Shown here: piece by piece, positions 3,272 to 35,243 of the stretch
Layout: every line of letters begins with the position of its first letter
How positions within the stretch are numbered: position 1 is the first letter of the stretch
Assembly: GCA_947643615.1 (NCBI GenBank)
Contig: CANRWO010000018.1
Coordinates: forward strand, 1 to 58,158
Origin: an uncultured Lachnospiraceae bacterium
Lineage (GTDB): Bacteria; Bacillota; Clostridia; Lachnospirales; Lachnospiraceae
DNA length: 58,158 nucleotides
Direction of reading: 5' to 3'
The notes under the pieces: generated by a model
Seen by the model: only the letters and a program-made list of their open reading frames with translations
Database searches by the model: none
What the model was told of the DNA's origin: nothing
Made by a program: the position numbers and the translations under genes

Positions 3272-6200
3272 AGCGCCGCAAGCCTTTTTAAATATTCGTA
3301 ACGTTCCTTTGCCTGCTTTTCCGCCTGGGCAAAGAGAAGCTGCGCCTGATCCGGCTTTTGCCGTTTCAATACATCATAACGGATTTCTCCGTCTAAAAAT
3401 TCTTCATAGTTTAATTGCGGTTCGTCACTGTCCAGAATAAACGGATTTTTACCCTCGTCTTTTAACAGAGGATTGAAGCGGAAGAGATGGAAATATCCGC
3501 TGTCCACAGCTTTTTTCGCCTCATGTGGTGTGGAGCCTAAGCCGCTTCGGATCCCGTGGGCAATACAGGTGGAGTAGGCAATAATGAGGGAAGGGCCGGG
3601 GTATTCGGCAGCCTCCGTAAATGCCGCCAGTGTCTGGTTGAAGTCGGCTCCCATAGCGATCTGGGCAACGTACACATTGCCGTAAGTCATTGCGATGGAG
3701 GCCAGATCCTTTTTGCGTGTGGTCTTTCCGCCGGACACAAATTTTGCGGTGGACCCGGTGGGAGTCGCCTTGGAAGCCTGCCCGCCGGTGTTGGAATAGA
3801 CTTCCGTATCCAGAACCAATATATTGATATTGCTGCCGCTGGCAAGAACATGATCCAGACCTCCGAAACCGATGTCATATGCCCAGCCGTCGCCGCCGAT
3901 GACCCACTGGATGGTATCTGTATTTTCTCCCCGTTTTGCTGCTGTCTCTTGAGCCAATAGCATACCGTAGCCGAATTCGGCGCCGTCCTCGAAGAGTGAA
4001 TTGGACCATGCAGGGCCTTTTCCCTCATCATCCACGGTATAGGCACAAGAGGGAGAGGAATTCGCCCAAATGGAGCTGCAGCCGGTGGCATTGGCAATGA
4101 ACATGCGGTCACCGAAAAGCTGGGTAAGAAGCTTTACATAAGGTGTTTCGCCGCATCCTGCACAGGCGCCGGAAAATTCCAGATAAGGGCGCAGGAACTG
4201 ACTTCCCTTGACCGTATTTTTCCGGAATTTTTCTGCGGCCTCCTTACAGGGCAGCAAGGGTTTTCCGAAATCAAAGTATTGCTGCCGTTCCGCATGTTCC
4301 GCTATGGGAACCATTTCCAGAGCCTTTTTGCCTTGCTTTCCCGGACATATGGCGGCACAAGTGCCACAGCCGGTACAGTCCACTTCCGAGACGACAATGG
4401 AAAAAGTGTGCCCTTCCATACCCATCATGGGAAGAGACGGCATACCTTCCGGCAGTGTAAGCGAAGAATCTTCTTTTACTACGGCAGGCCGGATTACCGC
4501 ATGGGGGCATACAAAGGAACAGAGGTTGCATTGGATACAGTTTTCCGGTTTCCAGACGGGAATTTCCGTGGCCACGTTGCGCCGCTCGTGTGCGGTGCTG
4601 CCGGGAGGGGTAAAGCCGTCCGCATAGGGCAGGAATGCCGATACCGGAAGGGAATCTCCCCGTTGGTCGGTAACGGGCTGCTGAATGTTTTTCACAAAGG
4701 AAAGCATTTCGGGACGGTCGGGCAAGGGAGGATTATCCGGGGAAGCGCTATCGTCGGGAAGATGCTTCCAAGCCTCCGGAAGCGGTATTTCCCGTACCTC
4801 CTGAAAACCTCTGTCGATGGCTTCCTCGTTCATCCGCAGGATGTTTCCGCCGGATTTCCCGTAGCTCTTGGCGGCGGCTTCCTTCATAAGCCGTTTGGCT
4901 TCTTCGGAAGGCAGCAATCCTGACACGGCGAAGAAAGCGGCCTGTAAGATAGTGCTGATCTTGTTATTTAATCCGATTTCTTTTCCGATGCGTATGGCAT
5001 CAATGACACAGAACCGGATATGATGGTTGGCCAGATAAGCTTTTACCGCATCGGGAAGATATTCTTCCAGTTCTTTCTCTTTGAAGTAGCAGTTTAACAG
5101 AAAAGTTCCCCCGTCTTTTAAATCCTGCACCATTTCATACTTATGCAGATAGACAGGATTATGGCATGCCACAAGGTCTGCGTGCCGAACCAGATAGGCA
5201 CTGTGGATGGGGCTTTTGCCAAAGCGCAGGTGGGAGATGGTGAGACCTCTGGACTTTTTGGAATCGTATTCAAAGTATCCCTGTGCCTGCAAATCCGTGT
5301 GGTCGCCGATTATTTTAATGATATTTTTGGTGGCGCTGACTGTGCCGTCTCCCCCCAGTCCCCAGAATTTGCAGGCAGTCAGATCCGCCGGCGCAGTGTC
5401 GGCGACCCGGGGGATGGGCAGTGACAGATTGGTGACGTCATCCTCTATTCCCACGGTAAAGTCGGAAAGCGTTTGGTTGAGATAGATTGCCGCAATTTGT
5501 TCCGGGGTGGTATCCTTGGAGCTCAGACCGTATCTGCCGGACAGAATGCGGCAGGGCATACCTTGAAGAGCCGCCGCCACGTCTAAGAACAACGGTTCTC
5601 CGGGGGCGCCGGGTTCTTTGGTACGGCTTAGGACGGAAATCTGCTTCGTGGACGGAGGGAGAGCCGCTTTCAGGTGCTTTGCGCTGAAAGGGCGGTACAA
5701 ATGGACGGCAATCAGTCCGTAGGGCCGGTCGGGAACGGTTTCCAGATATTCCCGGACGGTTTCACAGATACTGCCCATAGCCACAATGACATGGGTGGCT
5801 GAGGGATTACCGTAGTAATCAAAAAGACCGTAATTTGTGCCGATGGCCTGATTGATTTTGTCAAGCTGCTTTTCCACGATGGCAGGAAGCGCAATATAGG
5901 CGGGATTGGAAGCTTCTCTTGCCTGAAAGAAAATGTCGGGATTCTGGGCGGAGCCGTAGACCTTCCCGTGGCTGGGATGGAGGCACTCTTCCCGGAACCT
6001 TTGGACGGATTCCATGGAAAGCATGGATTTTAAGGTCTCGTAATCCCAGACCTTAATTTTTTGCAGTTCATGGGAGGTGCGGAAACCGTCAAAGAAATTG
6101 AGAAAGGGAATCCGCCCTTCTATGGCGGCAAGGTGGGATACGGGAGACAAATCCATGGTTTCCTGTACGCTGCCGCAGGCAAAGATGGCGCAGCCGGTCT

Positions 6201-29239: not shown

Positions 29240-29335
29240 GTTTTTGTTTCCCTCATTTTTTATGTTGTATTATATACATATATTATTTAACCGCTTTTTT
29301 TCCTGTTTTGCAACAACTTTTTGCAAGAAACGGTG

Positions 29336-29463
29336 TATTCCCGCGAGCAACGAGCCAAGTGGCTGCTTGCAGACATTTGGCGACTGCCGCGAGGGTCAAA
29401 TACCCCGCTGCTCTGCAGCGCTGCAAGTTTGATACCCCATTGCTTGCAGCGGGGCCTTTGATT
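29336..29463 (+). repeat. 128-bp dispersed repeat, copy B
   Basis: It differs from 18246-18373 at three positions only (T/C, G/A and T/C). It carries the same terminator-like stem at its right end. It lies in the 490-base gap between divergent asnA and the radical SAM gene. Apart from this repeat and the LexA-controlled promoter, that gap shows no gene. Confidence 0.9.
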
Positions 29464-29618
29464 TGGCTGTGGCAGGAAATGGTTGTTTTGGTACAGACAT
29501 TTATGGATGTGTGACTGGAATTGCAATGCCATACTGTACGGTGAGGATAATTTTACGGTAATATTCCGGCAGGAGGCAGGGAATTATATGGGAACCTGTT
29601 TTAATTGGCATAAAATAC

Positions 29619-29647
29619 TTGCATAACCAGAACATATGTGCTATATT
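29619..29647 (+). promoter_or_regulatory. Promoter of the radical SAM/DUF4130 pair
   Basis: TTGCAT (29619-29624), 17 bases, TATATT (29642-29647). Start near 29654 would fall just before the downstream LexA-like box. Confidence 0.6.
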
Positions 29648-29667
29648 CTAATAAGGAACAAATGTTC
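29630..29667 (+). promoter_or_regulatory. Two LexA (SOS) box-like operators
   Basis: GAACAAATGTTC (29656-29667) is a perfect Gram-positive LexA/DinR core (GAAC-N4-GTTC) and lies at the transcription start. GAACATATGTGC (29630-29641) has one mismatch and fills the spacer between -35 and -10. Both positions would block RNA polymerase. The consensus is established for Bacillus and clostridia; binding here is inferred. Confidence 0.7.
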
Positions 29668-29729
29668 GCGGCACTGCATGCATATATTTGCCATGTGTGA
29701 TGGCCTTTGAAGGACAGGGAGGTAGCAAG

Positions 29730-31082
29730 GTGGAATTTCTGGCGGTGGGGCAGGAGATGCCTCTGATGGAAAAATTGGGTATTCTGGCAAATTCTGCGAA
29801 GTATGATGTGGCATGTACCTCCAGCGGCGTGGACCGTAAGGGTAACGGCGTGGATATGGGAAACTGTGTGGCAGCAGGCATATGCCACAGCTTCAGCAGC
29901 GACGGAAGGTGTATTTCCCTTTTGAAAATATTGCTGACAAACGAGTGTATTTATGACTGTAAATACTGCCTGAACCGCTGCTCAAATGATGTGCCGCGGG
30001 CCACGTTTACACCGGATGAGGTCTGTACGCTGACGGTAGAATTTTACCGTAGAAATTATATAGAAGGGTTGTTTCTGAGCTCGGGTATCTTGAACAACCC
30101 TACTTTTACTATGGAGCTGATCTTTCGAACCATCTGGCTTCTGCGCAAGAAGTACCGCTTTAACGGTTACGTACACGTAAAGGCCATTCCCGGGGCCGAC
30201 CCGGAGCTGATCCGGCGCACGGGGTTTCTGGTGGACAGGATGAGCATTAACCTGGAGCTGCCTACGGCGGAGGGACTGCGCACATTGGCGCCGAATAAGC
30301 ACAGGAAAAGTATCCTGACACCCATGCGGCAGATCCAGAACGGTATTACGGCAAACAAAAATGACCTGGTTCTTTATCGCAATGCGCCTACTTTCGTGGG
30401 CGGGGGACAGGCAACACAGATGATCATAGGGGCAACGCCTGAAAACGATTACCAAATCTTAAATGTGGCGGAAAGCCTGTATCAGAAATTTGACTTAAAA
30501 AGGGTCTTCTATTCCGCATTTGTCAATGTGACGGGAGACAAGCAGCTTCCTGCACTGCCGGGAGGGCCGCCGCTCCTTCGGGAACACAGGCTGTACCAGG
30601 CGGACTGGCTGCTGCGGTTTTACGGCTTTAAGGCCAGTGAGCTGTTGGATGAAAAACGCCCGTTTTTTAATGTGATGCTGGATCCCAAGGAAGACTGGGC
30701 GGTGAGGCATTTGGACCAATTTCCTGTGGAAATCAACCGGGCGCCCCTGGAGCAGCTTTTGCGGATTCCCGGGGTGGGAGTGAAGAGCGCGCAGAGGATT
30801 GTGGCTGCCCGCAGAAGTGCGAATCTGACATTTGCCGATTTAAAAAAGATTGGCGTGGTGCTGAAACGTGCCTTATACTTTATTACCTGTGGCGGGAGAA
30901 TGATGTATCCGGTCAAGCTGGAGGAAGATTACATTGTGCGGAACCTTACGGAAAAGCAGGAAAGGATCCGGTTTGGGAGCGACGGTATGAGCTATCGGCA
31001 GATGTCGTTGTTTGACGTGGGAAATTTCGGGCAGCCAGTGACGGTTACCGACAGGATCCAGGCGGCCGCAGGGCAGCTATGA
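29730..31082 (+). CDS. Putative DNA modification/repair radical SAM protein (TIGR03916)
   Basis: This 450-residue protein has the [4Fe-4S]-SAM motif CIYDCKYC (CxxxCxxC, about residues 76-83) in a radical SAM barrel. A helix-hairpin-helix follows (LLRIPGVGVKSAQRIVAARR, about residues 348-367), which is a DNA-binding element. ACTSSGVDR near the N-terminus and the HhH are typical of TIGR03916, which always pairs with TIGR03915 and is thought to act in DNA repair or modification. I chose GTG 29730 since AGGGAGG precedes it by seven bases; ATG 29766 is another option. The partner gene follows after 54 bases. Two LexA-like boxes lie in the promoter. Confidence 0.9.
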   Translation: MEFLAVGQEMPLMEKLGILANSAKYDVACTSSGVDRKGNGVDMGNCVAAGICHSFSSDGRCISLLKILLTNECIYDCKYCLNRCSNDVPRATFTPDEVCTLTVEFYRRNYIEGLFLSSGILNNPTFTMELIFRTIWLLRKKYRFNGYVHVKAIPGADPELIRRTGFLVDRMSINLELPTAEGLRTLAPNKHRKSILTPMRQIQNGITANKNDLVLYRNAPTFVGGGQATQMIIGATPENDYQILNVAESLYQKFDLKRVFYSAFVNVTGDKQLPALPGGPPLLREHRLYQADWLLRFYGFKASELLDEKRPFFNVMLDPKEDWAVRHLDQFPVEINRAPLEQLLRIPGVGVKSAQRIVAARRSANLTFADLKKIGVVLKRALYFITCGGRMMYPVKLEEDYIVRNLTEKQERIRFGSDGMSYRQMSLFDVGNFGQPVTVTDRIQAAAGQL

Positions 31083-31136
31083 GAACCCTGGAGCGTGTTT
31101 GAAGGGAGTACAGGGACAGCAGAGAGGCGGAAGGGC

Positions 31137-31904
31137 ATGACGGTATATAGATGTAAGGATTCTTTGGAGAGCATATTTACGGCAATTTATCTGGCTTATG
31201 AGGAAAAACGGAATCATTGGGACACTTGCATCAATTTGACGGACGAGCCGGTTTTGTTTGCGGAAGATGTATATGTGGAGCCGGATCAGGTTAAAATGAA
31301 TAAAGTAATGCGTTCCCTGCACCGCATGTTCGGAGAGAAAGATTATCTGTCGTTGTGTATGGCGCTGGCTTCCCGGGATGAGGGAAAAGCCCAGGCGGTA
31401 TACCGGACTGTGGTGGACGGACTTGCCATGAAACGGAAAGCTGGCCATCTGTTTGATAACCTTGCCAATGACGAGGTACACCATGCATTTGCCCTTGCCA
31501 GGCTGGTAGGCAGGGAAATCGGGCACTTGCGGGAATTTGTGCGGTTCCGGGAATTGGAAAACGGCGTGCTTTGTTCCGACATAGAGCCGGAGAATAACGT
31601 TGTCGCTTTTTTAATGCCTCATTTCTCAGACAGGCTGCCCCAGGAAAACTTTATGATCTGCGACGGGAGGAGAGGGATTTTTGCCATTCATCCTGCAGGA
31701 CGGCAGTGGTACTTATTTTATGGGGAAGAAGGACAGGGGCCTCTTCCTTTTAAGGAATCCGCGCAGGAGCAGGCTTATCAGGAACTTTTTAAATATTTCT
31801 GCCATAAAATAGCCATTGAGGAACGAAAGAATCCAAAACTGCAGCGGAACATGCTTCCTCTGCGGTTTCGGAAAAATATGACAGAATTCTTGCAGAATGA
31901 GTAA
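31137..31904 (+). CDS. TIGR03915/DUF4130 family putative DNA repair protein
   Basis: The 255-residue partner of the radical SAM protein. It matches the family in start (TVYRCKDSLESIFTAIYLAYE), the central HLFDNLANDEVHHAFALARLVGREIGHLREFVRF, and the late PENNVVAFLMPHFSDRLP and FAIHPAGRQWYLF. About half of such proteins elsewhere carry a fused uracil-DNA-glycosylase-like domain; this one has none. No enzymatic motif is known. The conserved linkage suggests a two-protein repair or modification complex. ATG 31137 follows GGCGGAAGGG; the frame is open to 31095. Co-transcribed with the upstream gene, hence probably SOS-controlled. Confidence 0.9.
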   Translation: MTVYRCKDSLESIFTAIYLAYEEKRNHWDTCINLTDEPVLFAEDVYVEPDQVKMNKVMRSLHRMFGEKDYLSLCMALASRDEGKAQAVYRTVVDGLAMKRKAGHLFDNLANDEVHHAFALARLVGREIGHLREFVRFRELENGVLCSDIEPENNVVAFLMPHFSDRLPQENFMICDGRRGIFAIHPAGRQWYLFYGEEGQGPLPFKESAQEQAYQELFKYFCHKIAIEERKNPKLQRNMLPLRFRKNMTEFLQNE

Positions 31905-31983: not shown

Positions 31984-32102
31984 GTTTAAATATAGGAGCA
32001 GGAAATATATAGCAATGTCAGGGACTTCCCAATAAATAACTCGTGAAATTATATTTCGGGTTGTTTAGGGCAGCTCTCTAGTATTCGGAAAGGATGGTTA
32101 AT

Positions 32103-32327
32103 ATGGTAAAAACAATTCGTTTGACACCTGATAACGTACAGCACTTTGTGGATGTAACTTCCAAATGTGATTTTGACATTGATATCTCCTACAACAGATA
32201 TGTAGTGGATGCCAAGTCATTTTTAGGAGTGTACGGGTTGAACTTCAATCATTTGTTGAAGGTTTCCTACGACGGTTATGACGCAAAGCTGGAAGAATTG
32301 CTGAACCAGTTGACTGTAGCCTGCTGA
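32103..32327 (+). CDS. HPr-fold protein without the phosphorylatable His15 (Crh-like)
   Basis: A 74-residue protein that aligns with HPr over FVDVTSKCDFDIDISYN and the regulatory segment VDAKSFLGV, equivalent to the Ser46 region LKSIMGV of B. subtilis HPr. The active-site loop GIHARPA is absent; the sequence goes from LTPDNV straight to QHFVDV. It cannot accept phosphate from Enzyme I but keeps the Ser46-equivalent (about Ser41). This resembles Crh, the catabolite co-repressor that works with CcpA. The role is inferred. The start with AAAGG nine bases upstream gives MVKTIRLT; ATG 32094 is an alternative. No pts genes nearby. Confidence 0.75.
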   Translation: MVKTIRLTPDNVQHFVDVTSKCDFDIDISYNRYVVDAKSFLGVYGLNFNHLLKVSYDGYDAKLEELLNQLTVAC

Positions 32328-32493: not shown

Positions 32494-32627
32494 TGTATTT
32501 TATAAACTGTGCCAAAATGAGCTTTTTTGCTCCTTTTGTGTGCATCGGCCAAACTCCCGGATTTTAATGCATGATGGCGCAGCCGGTTGCATGGGAGTTT
32601 CGTTTGGAAAGGGGCAGGAAGGTAGAT

Positions 32628-35243
32628 ATGGGAACGGGAATCACTCGCAGGAAACCGGATAACGGCCCGGTGGAAACAGTTCTTCCACCGATGGAAATTC
32701 GGGTTTCGGTCAGGACCCTTGTAGAGTTTATACTGCGTCACGGGGATATTGATAACAGGCGCCAGGCATCCCCTGACAATGCCATGCAGGAAGGCGGGCG
32801 TATCCACCGCATGATCCAACGCAGGATGGGGGCGGAGTATGAGGCAGAGGTATCCCTGCGGTATACATTGCCAACGGATCATTACATCCTGGTAGTGGAG
32901 GGGAGGGCCGACGGAATTATCCACCATGAGGGCCAGGTCATTATTGACGAGATCAAAGGCACTTACCGCGACCTGGAGAAAATGAAGGGCCCCGCGCCTT
33001 TACATATAGCCCAGGCAAAATGCTATGCCTATATTTGTGCTTTGAAGGAGCAGCTGAAGGAAATAAGGGTGCGCATGACCTACTGCAATATGGAGACGGA
33101 GCAATTACGCTATTTCCATGAAGATTTTACATTCCCGCAGCTGGAAGGGTGGTTTGGCAGCTTGATAGAGGCTTATCGGAAATGGGCGGACTATTCCTGT
33201 AAATGGCAGTACACCCGGCAGGAATCTATTATAGGGTTGCAATTTCCCTTTCCGTACAGAGAGGGACAGAAGGAGCTGGTGTCCAATGTCTACCGGACTA
33301 TATATCATAAGAAGAAACTGTTTTTGGAAGCGCCTACCGGAGTGGGTAAAACCATCTCCACCATCTATCCTGCTGTCCAGGCCATGGGCCAGGGAATGGC
33401 TGAGAAGCTCTTTTACCTGACTGCCAAGACCATCACCAGGACGGTTGCGGATGAGACGTTTAGCCTGCTTCGGGAAAGGGGACTTCACTTCAAGAGTGTG
33501 ATCCTGACGGCAAAGGAAAAAAGCTGCTTTATGGAGCGGACGGAATGCAACCCTGAATATTGCCCATATGCAAAGGGCCATTTTGACAGGATCAACGACG
33601 CACTGTTTGAACTGCTGACCTCGGAGGAAAGTTTCAGCAGAGAGTGTATTGCGGAATATGCGCAAAAGTATCAGGTATGCCCCTTTGAAATGTGCCTTGA
33701 CATGACCCTTTTTTCGGATGCCGTTATTTGTGACTATAATTACCTCTTTGATCCTCATGTATATTTAAAGAGGTTTTTTGCAGAGGGAAACAGTGGAAAA
33801 TATATTTTTTTGATTGATGAGGCACATAATTTATTGGAGCGGGGGAGGGAGATGTACAGTGCGGCTCTCTATAAGAATTCTTTTCTGGAATTGTCCAGGG
33901 AACTGAAACAGACAATACTGTCAGAAACATCAAAACCCTCTAAAAATAAGGAAATATCAGGACAAATGACACTAGATATGACAGAGACGTCAGGGTGTCG
34001 GACGGCAATTGACCAGATTGGTACCAACAGGCTCCATGGAGGCAAAAGCGTTCTGGTACGTGAGGGGTATGCTTCTAAGATGGTCTATCATATGGAGAAA
34101 TGTAACGAAGAGCTGTTGGCGCTGAAACGGGAGTGCGACGGATGGCGTACTGTGGAGGAAATAGATGGTTTTATAAAACCTATTATGCGTCTCCATGCCG
34201 TTATGGACGAATATCTGTCTGAGCAGGAGGAAGAGCAGCCGCCGGTGAGGGAACAGTTGTTGGATTTCTATTTTGACGTCGGCCATTTCCTGGAGATTTA
34301 TGAGCTTTTGGACGAGAATTATGTCAAGTACACTCAGCTGGGGGAGGAGGGGGATTTTCTGCTGAAGCTGTTCTGCGTCAACCCGTCGGAAAACCTGAAA
34401 AACTGTATGCTGAAGGGGCGCAGCACTATTTTGTTCTCCGCTACCTTCCTGCCTATCCAGTATTATAAAAAGCTGTTGGGCGGGGAGGAGGAGGATTTTG
34501 AGGTTTATGCAAAATCCGTTTTCAACCCTGAGAAACGTGCATTGTTCCTGGCAAACGATGTGACCAGTAAGTATACAAGGCGTTCCGACGCGGAATATTA
34601 TAATATCGCCCGTTATATTGATGAGATTGTTAAGAACAGGCATGGGAATTATATGGTCTTCTGCCCTTCATACGCCTTTTTACACACCATATATGACAGA
34701 TATACGGAGTATTTTGCCGACGGCAGGAAGGAATGCATCCTCCAGGGGGAGTACATGAGTGAGAGCGACAGGGAGGTTTTCCTCTCCCGGTTCCGTGGAA
34801 ACGCCGGATGTGACCTGCAGGCTTTGGTAGGGATGGAAATCGAGGAGGAAGAGGATACCATCCTGATAGGGTTTTGCGTGTTGGGCGGCATTTTCAGCGA
34901 AGGCATTGACTTAAAGAACGACAGCCTCATCGGAGCCATTATTGTGGGCACGGGACTTCCCCAGGTTTGCAGTGAGCGGGAGATATTAAAAGGGTATTTT
35001 GACCTGGAGGGGGAAAGCGGCTTTGACTATTCTTATCGGTATCCTGGCATGAATAAAGTACTGCAGGCTGCGGGGCGGGTGATCCGCACCGTGGAGGATG
35101 TGGGGATCATAGCTCTGCTGGATGAACGTTTTCTGCAGGCGTCTTACCGCAGGCTGTTTCCCAGAGAATGGGAACGGTTTGAGACGGTAACGGTGGACAC
35201 AGTGGCGAAAAGAGTGGAGCGGTTCTGGGATTCATGGCTGTGA
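32628..35243 (+). CDS. PD-(D/E)XK nuclease fused to XPD/DinG-type Fe-S helicase
   Basis: An 871-residue protein. Residues about 20-190 form a Cas4/RecB-like nuclease domain (GRIHRMIQRRM, EGRADGI, IIDEIKGT, AKCYAYI). Then a superfamily 2 helicase: Walker A APTGVGKT, an Fe-S domain with cysteines in CFMERTECNPEYCPYAK and CPFEMC, DEAH box LIDEAHNLLE, and the C-terminal motifs LFSATF, GGIFSEGIDL and QAAGRVIRT. It probably unwinds 5'-3' and processes branched or damaged DNA. ATG 32628 follows GGAAGG; in-frame ATG 32571 and 32694 are alternatives. The architecture is frequent in Clostridia, but the role is not established. Confidence 0.9.
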   Translation: MGTGITRRKPDNGPVETVLPPMEIRVSVRTLVEFILRHGDIDNRRQASPDNAMQEGGRIHRMIQRRMGAEYEAEVSLRYTLPTDHYILVVEGRADGIIHHEGQVIIDEIKGTYRDLEKMKGPAPLHIAQAKCYAYICALKEQLKEIRVRMTYCNMETEQLRYFHEDFTFPQLEGWFGSLIEAYRKWADYSCKWQYTRQESIIGLQFPFPYREGQKELVSNVYRTIYHKKKLFLEAPTGVGKTISTIYPAVQAMGQGMAEKLFYLTAKTITRTVADETFSLLRERGLHFKSVILTAKEKSCFMERTECNPEYCPYAKGHFDRINDALFELLTSEESFSRECIAEYAQKYQVCPFEMCLDMTLFSDAVICDYNYLFDPHVYLKRFFAEGNSGKYIFLIDEAHNLLERGREMYSAALYKNSFLELSRELKQTILSETSKPSKNKEISGQMTLDMTETSGCRTAIDQIGTNRLHGGKSVLVREGYASKMVYHMEKCNEELLALKRECDGWRTVEEIDGFIKPIMRLHAVMDEYLSEQEEEQPPVREQLLDFYFDVGHFLEIYELLDENYVKYTQLGEEGDFLLKLFCVNPSENLKNCMLKGRSTILFSATFLPIQYYKKLLGGEEEDFEVYAKSVFNPEKRALFLANDVTSKYTRRSDAEYYNIARYIDEIVKNRHGNYMVFCPSYAFLHTIYDRYTEYFADGRKECILQGEYMSESDREVFLSRFRGNAGCDLQALVGMEIEEEEDTILIGFCVLGGIFSEGIDLKNDSLIGAIIVGTGLPQVCSEREILKGYFDLEGESGFDYSYRYPGMNKVLQAAGRVIRTVEDVGIIALLDERFLQASYRRLFPREWERFETVTVDTVAKRVERFWDSWL

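Follow-up and report, generated by a model that had tools for sequence, protein, structure and literature searches.

LexA-type control has been described in Bacteroidetes for a two-gene operon, COG1573-COG4277, in which a uracil-DNA glycosylase (UDG) is encoded together with a helix-hairpin-helix protein; in the sections available of that study, the operon was read as UDG-based base excision repair (PMC8565304). The same sections also cite Verrucomicrobia and Alphaproteobacteria for SOS control of the UDG-linked form. Furthermore, a link between DUF4130, UDG and SplB-like radical SAM enzymes has been drawn (accessible part of PMC3765255), and the SOS core of Gram-positive bacteria, according to the available text of PMC7739468, includes a radical SAM protein which is not named.

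For Bacillota, open-text literature searches, with subscription papers and supplements outside their reach, yielded no report of SOS control of the pair studied here, a radical SAM protein of family TIGR03916 and a DUF4130 protein of family TIGR03915. The accessible portions of the Clostridioides difficile regulon paper (PMC4234289) do not mention the pair, and radical SAM, COG4277, COG1573 and glycosylase are all absent from the main text, as far as available, of the gut meta-regulon study (PMC3998124). A preliminary description of this DNA had called the pair functionally undescribed. This has to be narrowed: SOS control is not new in kind, the UDG-linked form being known (PMC8565304, available sections), and it is the UDG-free form of Bacillota that was unreported in our searches.

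The pair was found in a stretch of 58,158 nucleotides, called here the window, which belongs to a draft genome of 3.83 Mb (126 contigs, completeness 96%). Two LexA-box sequences lie ahead of it, and it very probably constitutes a LexA-repressed SOS operon, the enzyme of which is expected to act on damaged DNA together with a UDG-free DUF4130 partner. The coding features are as follows.

29730..31082, + strand: TIGR03916 radical SAM protein, 450 aa, GTG start (NCBIfam match)
29946..29969, + strand: CxxxCxxC motif CIYDCKYC, residues 73-80 of this protein, predicted [4Fe-4S] site
30723..30848, + strand: helix-hairpin-helix (HHH_3) segment of the same protein (Pfam PF12836, 27.9 bits, gathering threshold 27)
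31137..31904, + strand: TIGR03915/DUF4130 partner, 255 aa, without a UDG domain, predicted DHH/DHHA1-like fold

When the window proteins were compared with the NCBIfam profiles, the enzyme matched the TIGR03916 model over its full length (positions 1-415 of 415; 676.1 bits, cut-off 343.5) and its partner matched TIGR03915 (207.6 bits, cut-off 112.25) as well as Pfam PF13566. The assignment to this pair made in the preliminary description is therefore upheld for both families, as is the helix-hairpin-helix, whose match lies above the gathering threshold. TIGR03916, which we take to be the same family as COG4277, was the only NCBIfam match of the enzyme at E <= 0.001, and the spore photoproduct lyase family model was unmatched. 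Residues C73, C77 and C80 are invariant across an alignment of 42 sequences (A2). Among solved structures, only a ComEA-like helix-hairpin-helix was related to the enzyme by sequence, and the predicted structure of the whole protein (pLDDT 51.5) was too poor for use.

The promoter region upstream of the pair contains the following elements.

29619..29624, + strand: -35 hexamer TTGCAT, weak (3/6 to TTGACA); TTG shared at this position by most relatives viewed
29630..29641, + strand: LexA box 1, GAACATATGTGC, one mismatch to the GAAC-N4-GTTC core, in the promoter spacer
29639..29640, + strand: TG of an extended -10 (TGn), conserved in relatives
29642..29647, + strand: -10 hexamer TATATT
29656..29667, + strand: LexA box 2, GAACAAATGTTC, exact core (0 mismatches), covering the predicted transcription start
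29716..29723, + strand: predicted ribosome-binding site AGGGAGGT

The spacer between TTGCAT and TATATT measures 17 nt, and the extended -10 is presumably of the Gram-positive TRTGn type. Since the -35 hexamer is weak and a generic promoter scan did not list TTGCAT-17-TATATT, the promoter call is founded on the TTG, the spacing, the TGn and the TA conserved in relatives. An exact core at the start and a one-mismatch core between the -35 and the -10 had been proposed, and both were found as described. The one-mismatch copy is indeed present in the spacer, but to regard it just as a weaker site would be incomplete, since the mismatched base, the G at position 11 (29640), is also the G of the extended -10. 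Box 1 is thus fused with the extended -10, one base belonging to both.

The preliminary description had pointed to orthologous promoters as the place where its proposal should be examined, and LexA boxes are present there. The family sample comprised 108 genomes of different genera, 112 over cut-off minus the own genome, two copies that lack the N-terminus and one with a short upstream region. In 107 of these 108 genomes the pair was preceded by a core with one mismatch or none, and in 56 by an exact core, versus 12 and 0 for the reversed pattern. At class level, 90 of 94 loci were scored, four fragments or short upstream regions being left out, and the removal of three own-family rows left 87 loci outside the family; 73 of them carried a core with at most one mismatch and 10 an exact one (reversed pattern, 12 and 1). 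Elsewhere in the phylum and without repeats, 58 genomes gave 55 loci after removal of the own genome, of one that had been counted before and of one unfetched, and one of the 55 was too short; the corresponding figures for the remaining 54 were 42 and 16, versus 3 and 0. Finally, among the close loci (the best 80 of 427, which are related to each other), 79 were scored and 73 had a core with at most one mismatch, exact in 56, compared with 213 and 16, respectively, of 2776 comparison windows of 265 nt taken from the same loci. These sequence comparisons strongly support the predicted LexA control and carry it beyond the single promoter to a large part of the phylum.

In 102 of the 108 family upstream regions the promoter was callable, and the boxes fell into three clusters, around -44, -13/-12 and +11 to +18, counted from the first base of the -10. 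As the boxes occupy few slots, the same control appears to be kept while operator placement differs. In the -12 register, the end of the box overlaps the TGn of the extended -10; such a box was present in 60 of 79 close loci (best 80 of 427). The 11G mismatch was observed in 58 of these 60 boxes, a count which, given the relatedness of the loci, does not represent 58 independent events. At genus level, 6 of 11 boxes of this register had the mismatch, and one base earlier, in the -13 register, it occurred in none of 21 genus-level boxes. Among promoters of the -13 register, 13 of 21 had an exact TATAAT, versus 3 of 14 in the -12 register, genus and class rows being pooled; this difference fits an extended -10 that compensates for a weak hexamer, although it is suggestive only. 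The fusion of operator and extended -10 clearly illustrates how a single base can apparently serve both repressor and polymerase.

Six of the close loci (best 80 of 427) have no near box. In three of them (L075, L078 and L085), both boxes lie 327-432 nt upstream, and in L081 no box was found within the 325 nt of contig available. In the two others (L051 and L055), the pair is located downstream of recA and recX (Pfam matches upstream of position 5001) and has no near box of its own; LexA cores occur at the promoter of recA, a gene with which the pair would be co-transcribed. The sole miss among the 108 family genomes (L209) has no box, though its genome has a lexA match. At class level, 14 of 87 loci were misses, 6 of which have the two-change palindrome AAAC-N4-GTTT, one of them beside masked letters, and at phylum level 12 of 54 loci were without a box at one mismatch or fewer. 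A lexA match is lacking in 3 of the 14 box-less genomes of the class. The absence of lexA as the cause of missing boxes was partly supported only: the match is lacking in 3 of 15 box-less genomes versus 1 of 20 box-bearing ones, the latter chosen from the 73 class-level genomes with a box.

Two further reading frames follow the pair in the window. The first (32094-32327) is a 77-aa ORF, weakly phosphocarrier HPr-like, which lies between the pair and the second and was matched in 38 of 55 close loci (best 80 of 427). The second (32571-35243) codes for a Rad3/XPD-like helicase with an N-terminal weak PD-(D/E)XK-like match below the Pfam cut-off; a helicase of this type was found downstream of the pair in all 55 close loci with full flanks (best 80 of 427). 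The helicase was considered as part of the SOS unit, which was unsupported: cores upstream of it were exact in 0 of 68 close loci and present with at most one mismatch in 4 of 68 (best 80 of 427).

The LexA motifs upstream of the pair make it likely that the pair is switched on by DNA damage. The cis-regulatory support that had been claimed for a damage-response role holds for the predicted regulation, but not for the repair activity, which we still infer. In the proposed mechanism, LexA dimers bound to both boxes would exclude RNA polymerase, and upon DNA damage the RecA-stimulated cleavage of LexA would release the promoter. The radical SAM protein with its predicted [4Fe-4S] cluster, bound to DNA via its helix-hairpin-helix, could then perform radical chemistry on a damaged nucleotide, and the DUF4130 partner, instead of excising uracil, may position the DNA or the reaction product.

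It is conceivable, if somewhat doubtful, that the LexA-controlled pair has a job other than lesion repair and modifies undamaged DNA or another substrate, for instance in mobile-element defence, mutagenesis or RNA/nucleotide chemistry as part of the SOS response. NCBIfam words the family as 'putative DNA modification/repair'. SOS regulons include non-repair genes (PMC4234289, available portions), and DUF4130 is presented in the accessible part of PMC3765255 as a predicted mutagenesis-related enzyme, with a possible thymine modification. However, the helix-hairpin-helix and the distribution of the enzyme fit chromosomal DNA repair better: TIGR03916 scored above its cut-off in 112 of the 200 family genomes sampled. 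It did so in 94 of 245 genomes of the class and 58 of 249 of the phylum, and the control genomes with a match do not include B. subtilis. The closest relatives of the enzyme are 92-94% identical to it, several of them from genomes filed as Lachnospiraceae or its genera. Also against this alternative, a single scan of viral contigs gave just three relatives of the radical SAM protein, coded for by contigs filed as viral (L461, L462 and L463).

An unlikely alternative is that the pair takes part in uracil base excision repair, as proposed for the relatives linked to UDG, and that a separate gene provides the glycosylase. This is how the LexA-controlled COG1573-COG4277 operon of Bacteroidetes was read (PMC8565304, available sections), but the partner in the window matched no UDG family in NCBIfam and Pfam profile searches. 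Its gene begins 54 nt past the end of the TIGR03916 gene, and the two adjoin in 106 of 108 family genomes. Among the 226 partner frames measured, out of 251 loci, none was UDG-sized: they span 241-388 codons and were taken from stop to stop, so that an N-terminal fusion would not be missed. Counted from the aligned start, where such a fusion could escape, 227 frames span 240-311 aa. The earlier statement that the partner has no UDG fusion is therefore confirmed for the window and, as regards room for the domain, for the 226 measured relatives. As these Bacillota partners have no room for a UDG, the published uracil base excision reading is unlikely to apply to all of the family.

With respect to its own fold, the predicted structure of the partner resembles, in fold comparison only, a degenerate DHH/DHHA1 (RecJ/Cdc45-like) fold. 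The likeness to the DHH/DHHA1 superfamily (RecJ, Cdc45, PAP phosphatase) is thus one of predicted fold, whereas the DHH motif is missing: none was found among the invariant or near-invariant columns of the partner alignment (A1, 68 sequences). A comparison of sequence profiles gave no support for a DHH relation, the probability being 0.08 versus 0.12 and 0.07 for the controls LexA and A2 (the enzyme alignment). The solved structures related to the partner by sequence were designed solenoid proteins, with weak matches only.

It is very improbable that the boxes upstream of the pair serve a different repressor whose operator is a palindrome resembling GAAC-N4-GTTC. Such a repressor could be invoked as the LexA models PF01726 and TIGR00498 gave no match in the own draft genome (completeness 96%), and the motif is also found near non-SOS genes, e.g. 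a histidine kinase gene (L002). However, TIGR00498 was matched in 20 of 24 genomes of the same genus, 18 of them over cut-off. A LysM gene is located near lexA in 18 of 30 lexA loci and a similar LysM gene stands at a contig end in the own genome; with this usual neighbour at a contig end, and lexA in most genomes of the genus, an assembly gap is the likely explanation for the absence of lexA from the draft. In addition, cores similar to the box of the pair occur in the own genome at recA, uvrB, a rarA/mgsA-like gene and a LysM gene, the core of box 2 itself recurring at uvrB and the rarA/mgsA-like gene; the inspection covered genes near some of the 36 sites with an exact core. The recA promoter, as read, has one box in its spacer and one near its start, which matches the layout at the pair, and the position of the pair behind recA-recX in two relatives also speaks for LexA.

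Other sites in the own genome may be recorded here. A phage-type integrase gene (L017:2430-3773) immediately precedes uvrB, with its end overlapping the LexA core of the latter. A second uvrB-like start (L022:2644-2931) has an exact LexA core upstream and a frame that stays open for just 95 aa. Besides the one near the histidine kinase gene (L002), exact LexA-like cores were also seen near a weakly sigma-like gene (L015) and in a stretch with no clear gene (L021).

When the 490-nt upstream region (29240-29729) was shuffled 20,000 times with its dinucleotides preserved, 38 shuffles gained an exact core, 1,266 any core with one mismatch or none, and 0 combined an exact core with a second box. 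The whole window contains 19 cores with at most one mismatch versus 17.3 expected. Across the genome, 36 exact cores were counted against 44 matches of the reversed pattern; as this is no enrichment, the single-genome argument was given up for the comparison of relatives. That the boxes are chance products of an AT-rich promoter, as these chance-level counts for the window and genome might suggest, is refuted by the conservation counts (107/108 family genomes versus 12/108 for the reversed pattern); the clustering in promoter slots also speaks against it, and virtually no weight is left to it.

LexA-dependent regulation thus being the preferred reading, an uncharacterised pair that is common in its family now comes under predicted damage control, and the lesion on which the radical chemistry acts becomes a testable question. 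More tentatively, a glycosylase-free, SOS-induced repair might be widespread in Bacillota, in which the DNA-bound radical SAM enzyme would reverse or process the lesion while a catalytically dead partner of the RecJ/Cdc45-like DHH fold would hold the DNA; this broader proposal is no better than possible. If true, it would represent a second radical-SAM DNA repair route beside spore photoproduct lyase.

Compared with described systems, the pair of the window shares with the Bacteroidetes COG1573-COG4277 operon its two genes and LexA-type control, as far as the available sections go; it differs in that this operon has motifs of its own (GGA-N5-TCC and CTAA-N5-TTAG) and a UDG, whereas the pair has GAAC-N4-GTTC and no UDG (PMC8565304). 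With the Gram-positive LexA regulon (B. subtilis; C. difficile, PMC4234289; gut meta-regulon, PMC3998124; available portions of both papers), it shares the operator core GAAC-N4-GTTC and, as at recA, the position of this core across the promoter. Spore photoproduct lyase (SplB) is likewise a radical SAM enzyme of DNA repair and is SOS-controlled in several species (PMC8565304, available sections). The enzyme of the window differs from it by matching TIGR03916 only, by its helix-hairpin-helix domain and by its DUF4130 partner.
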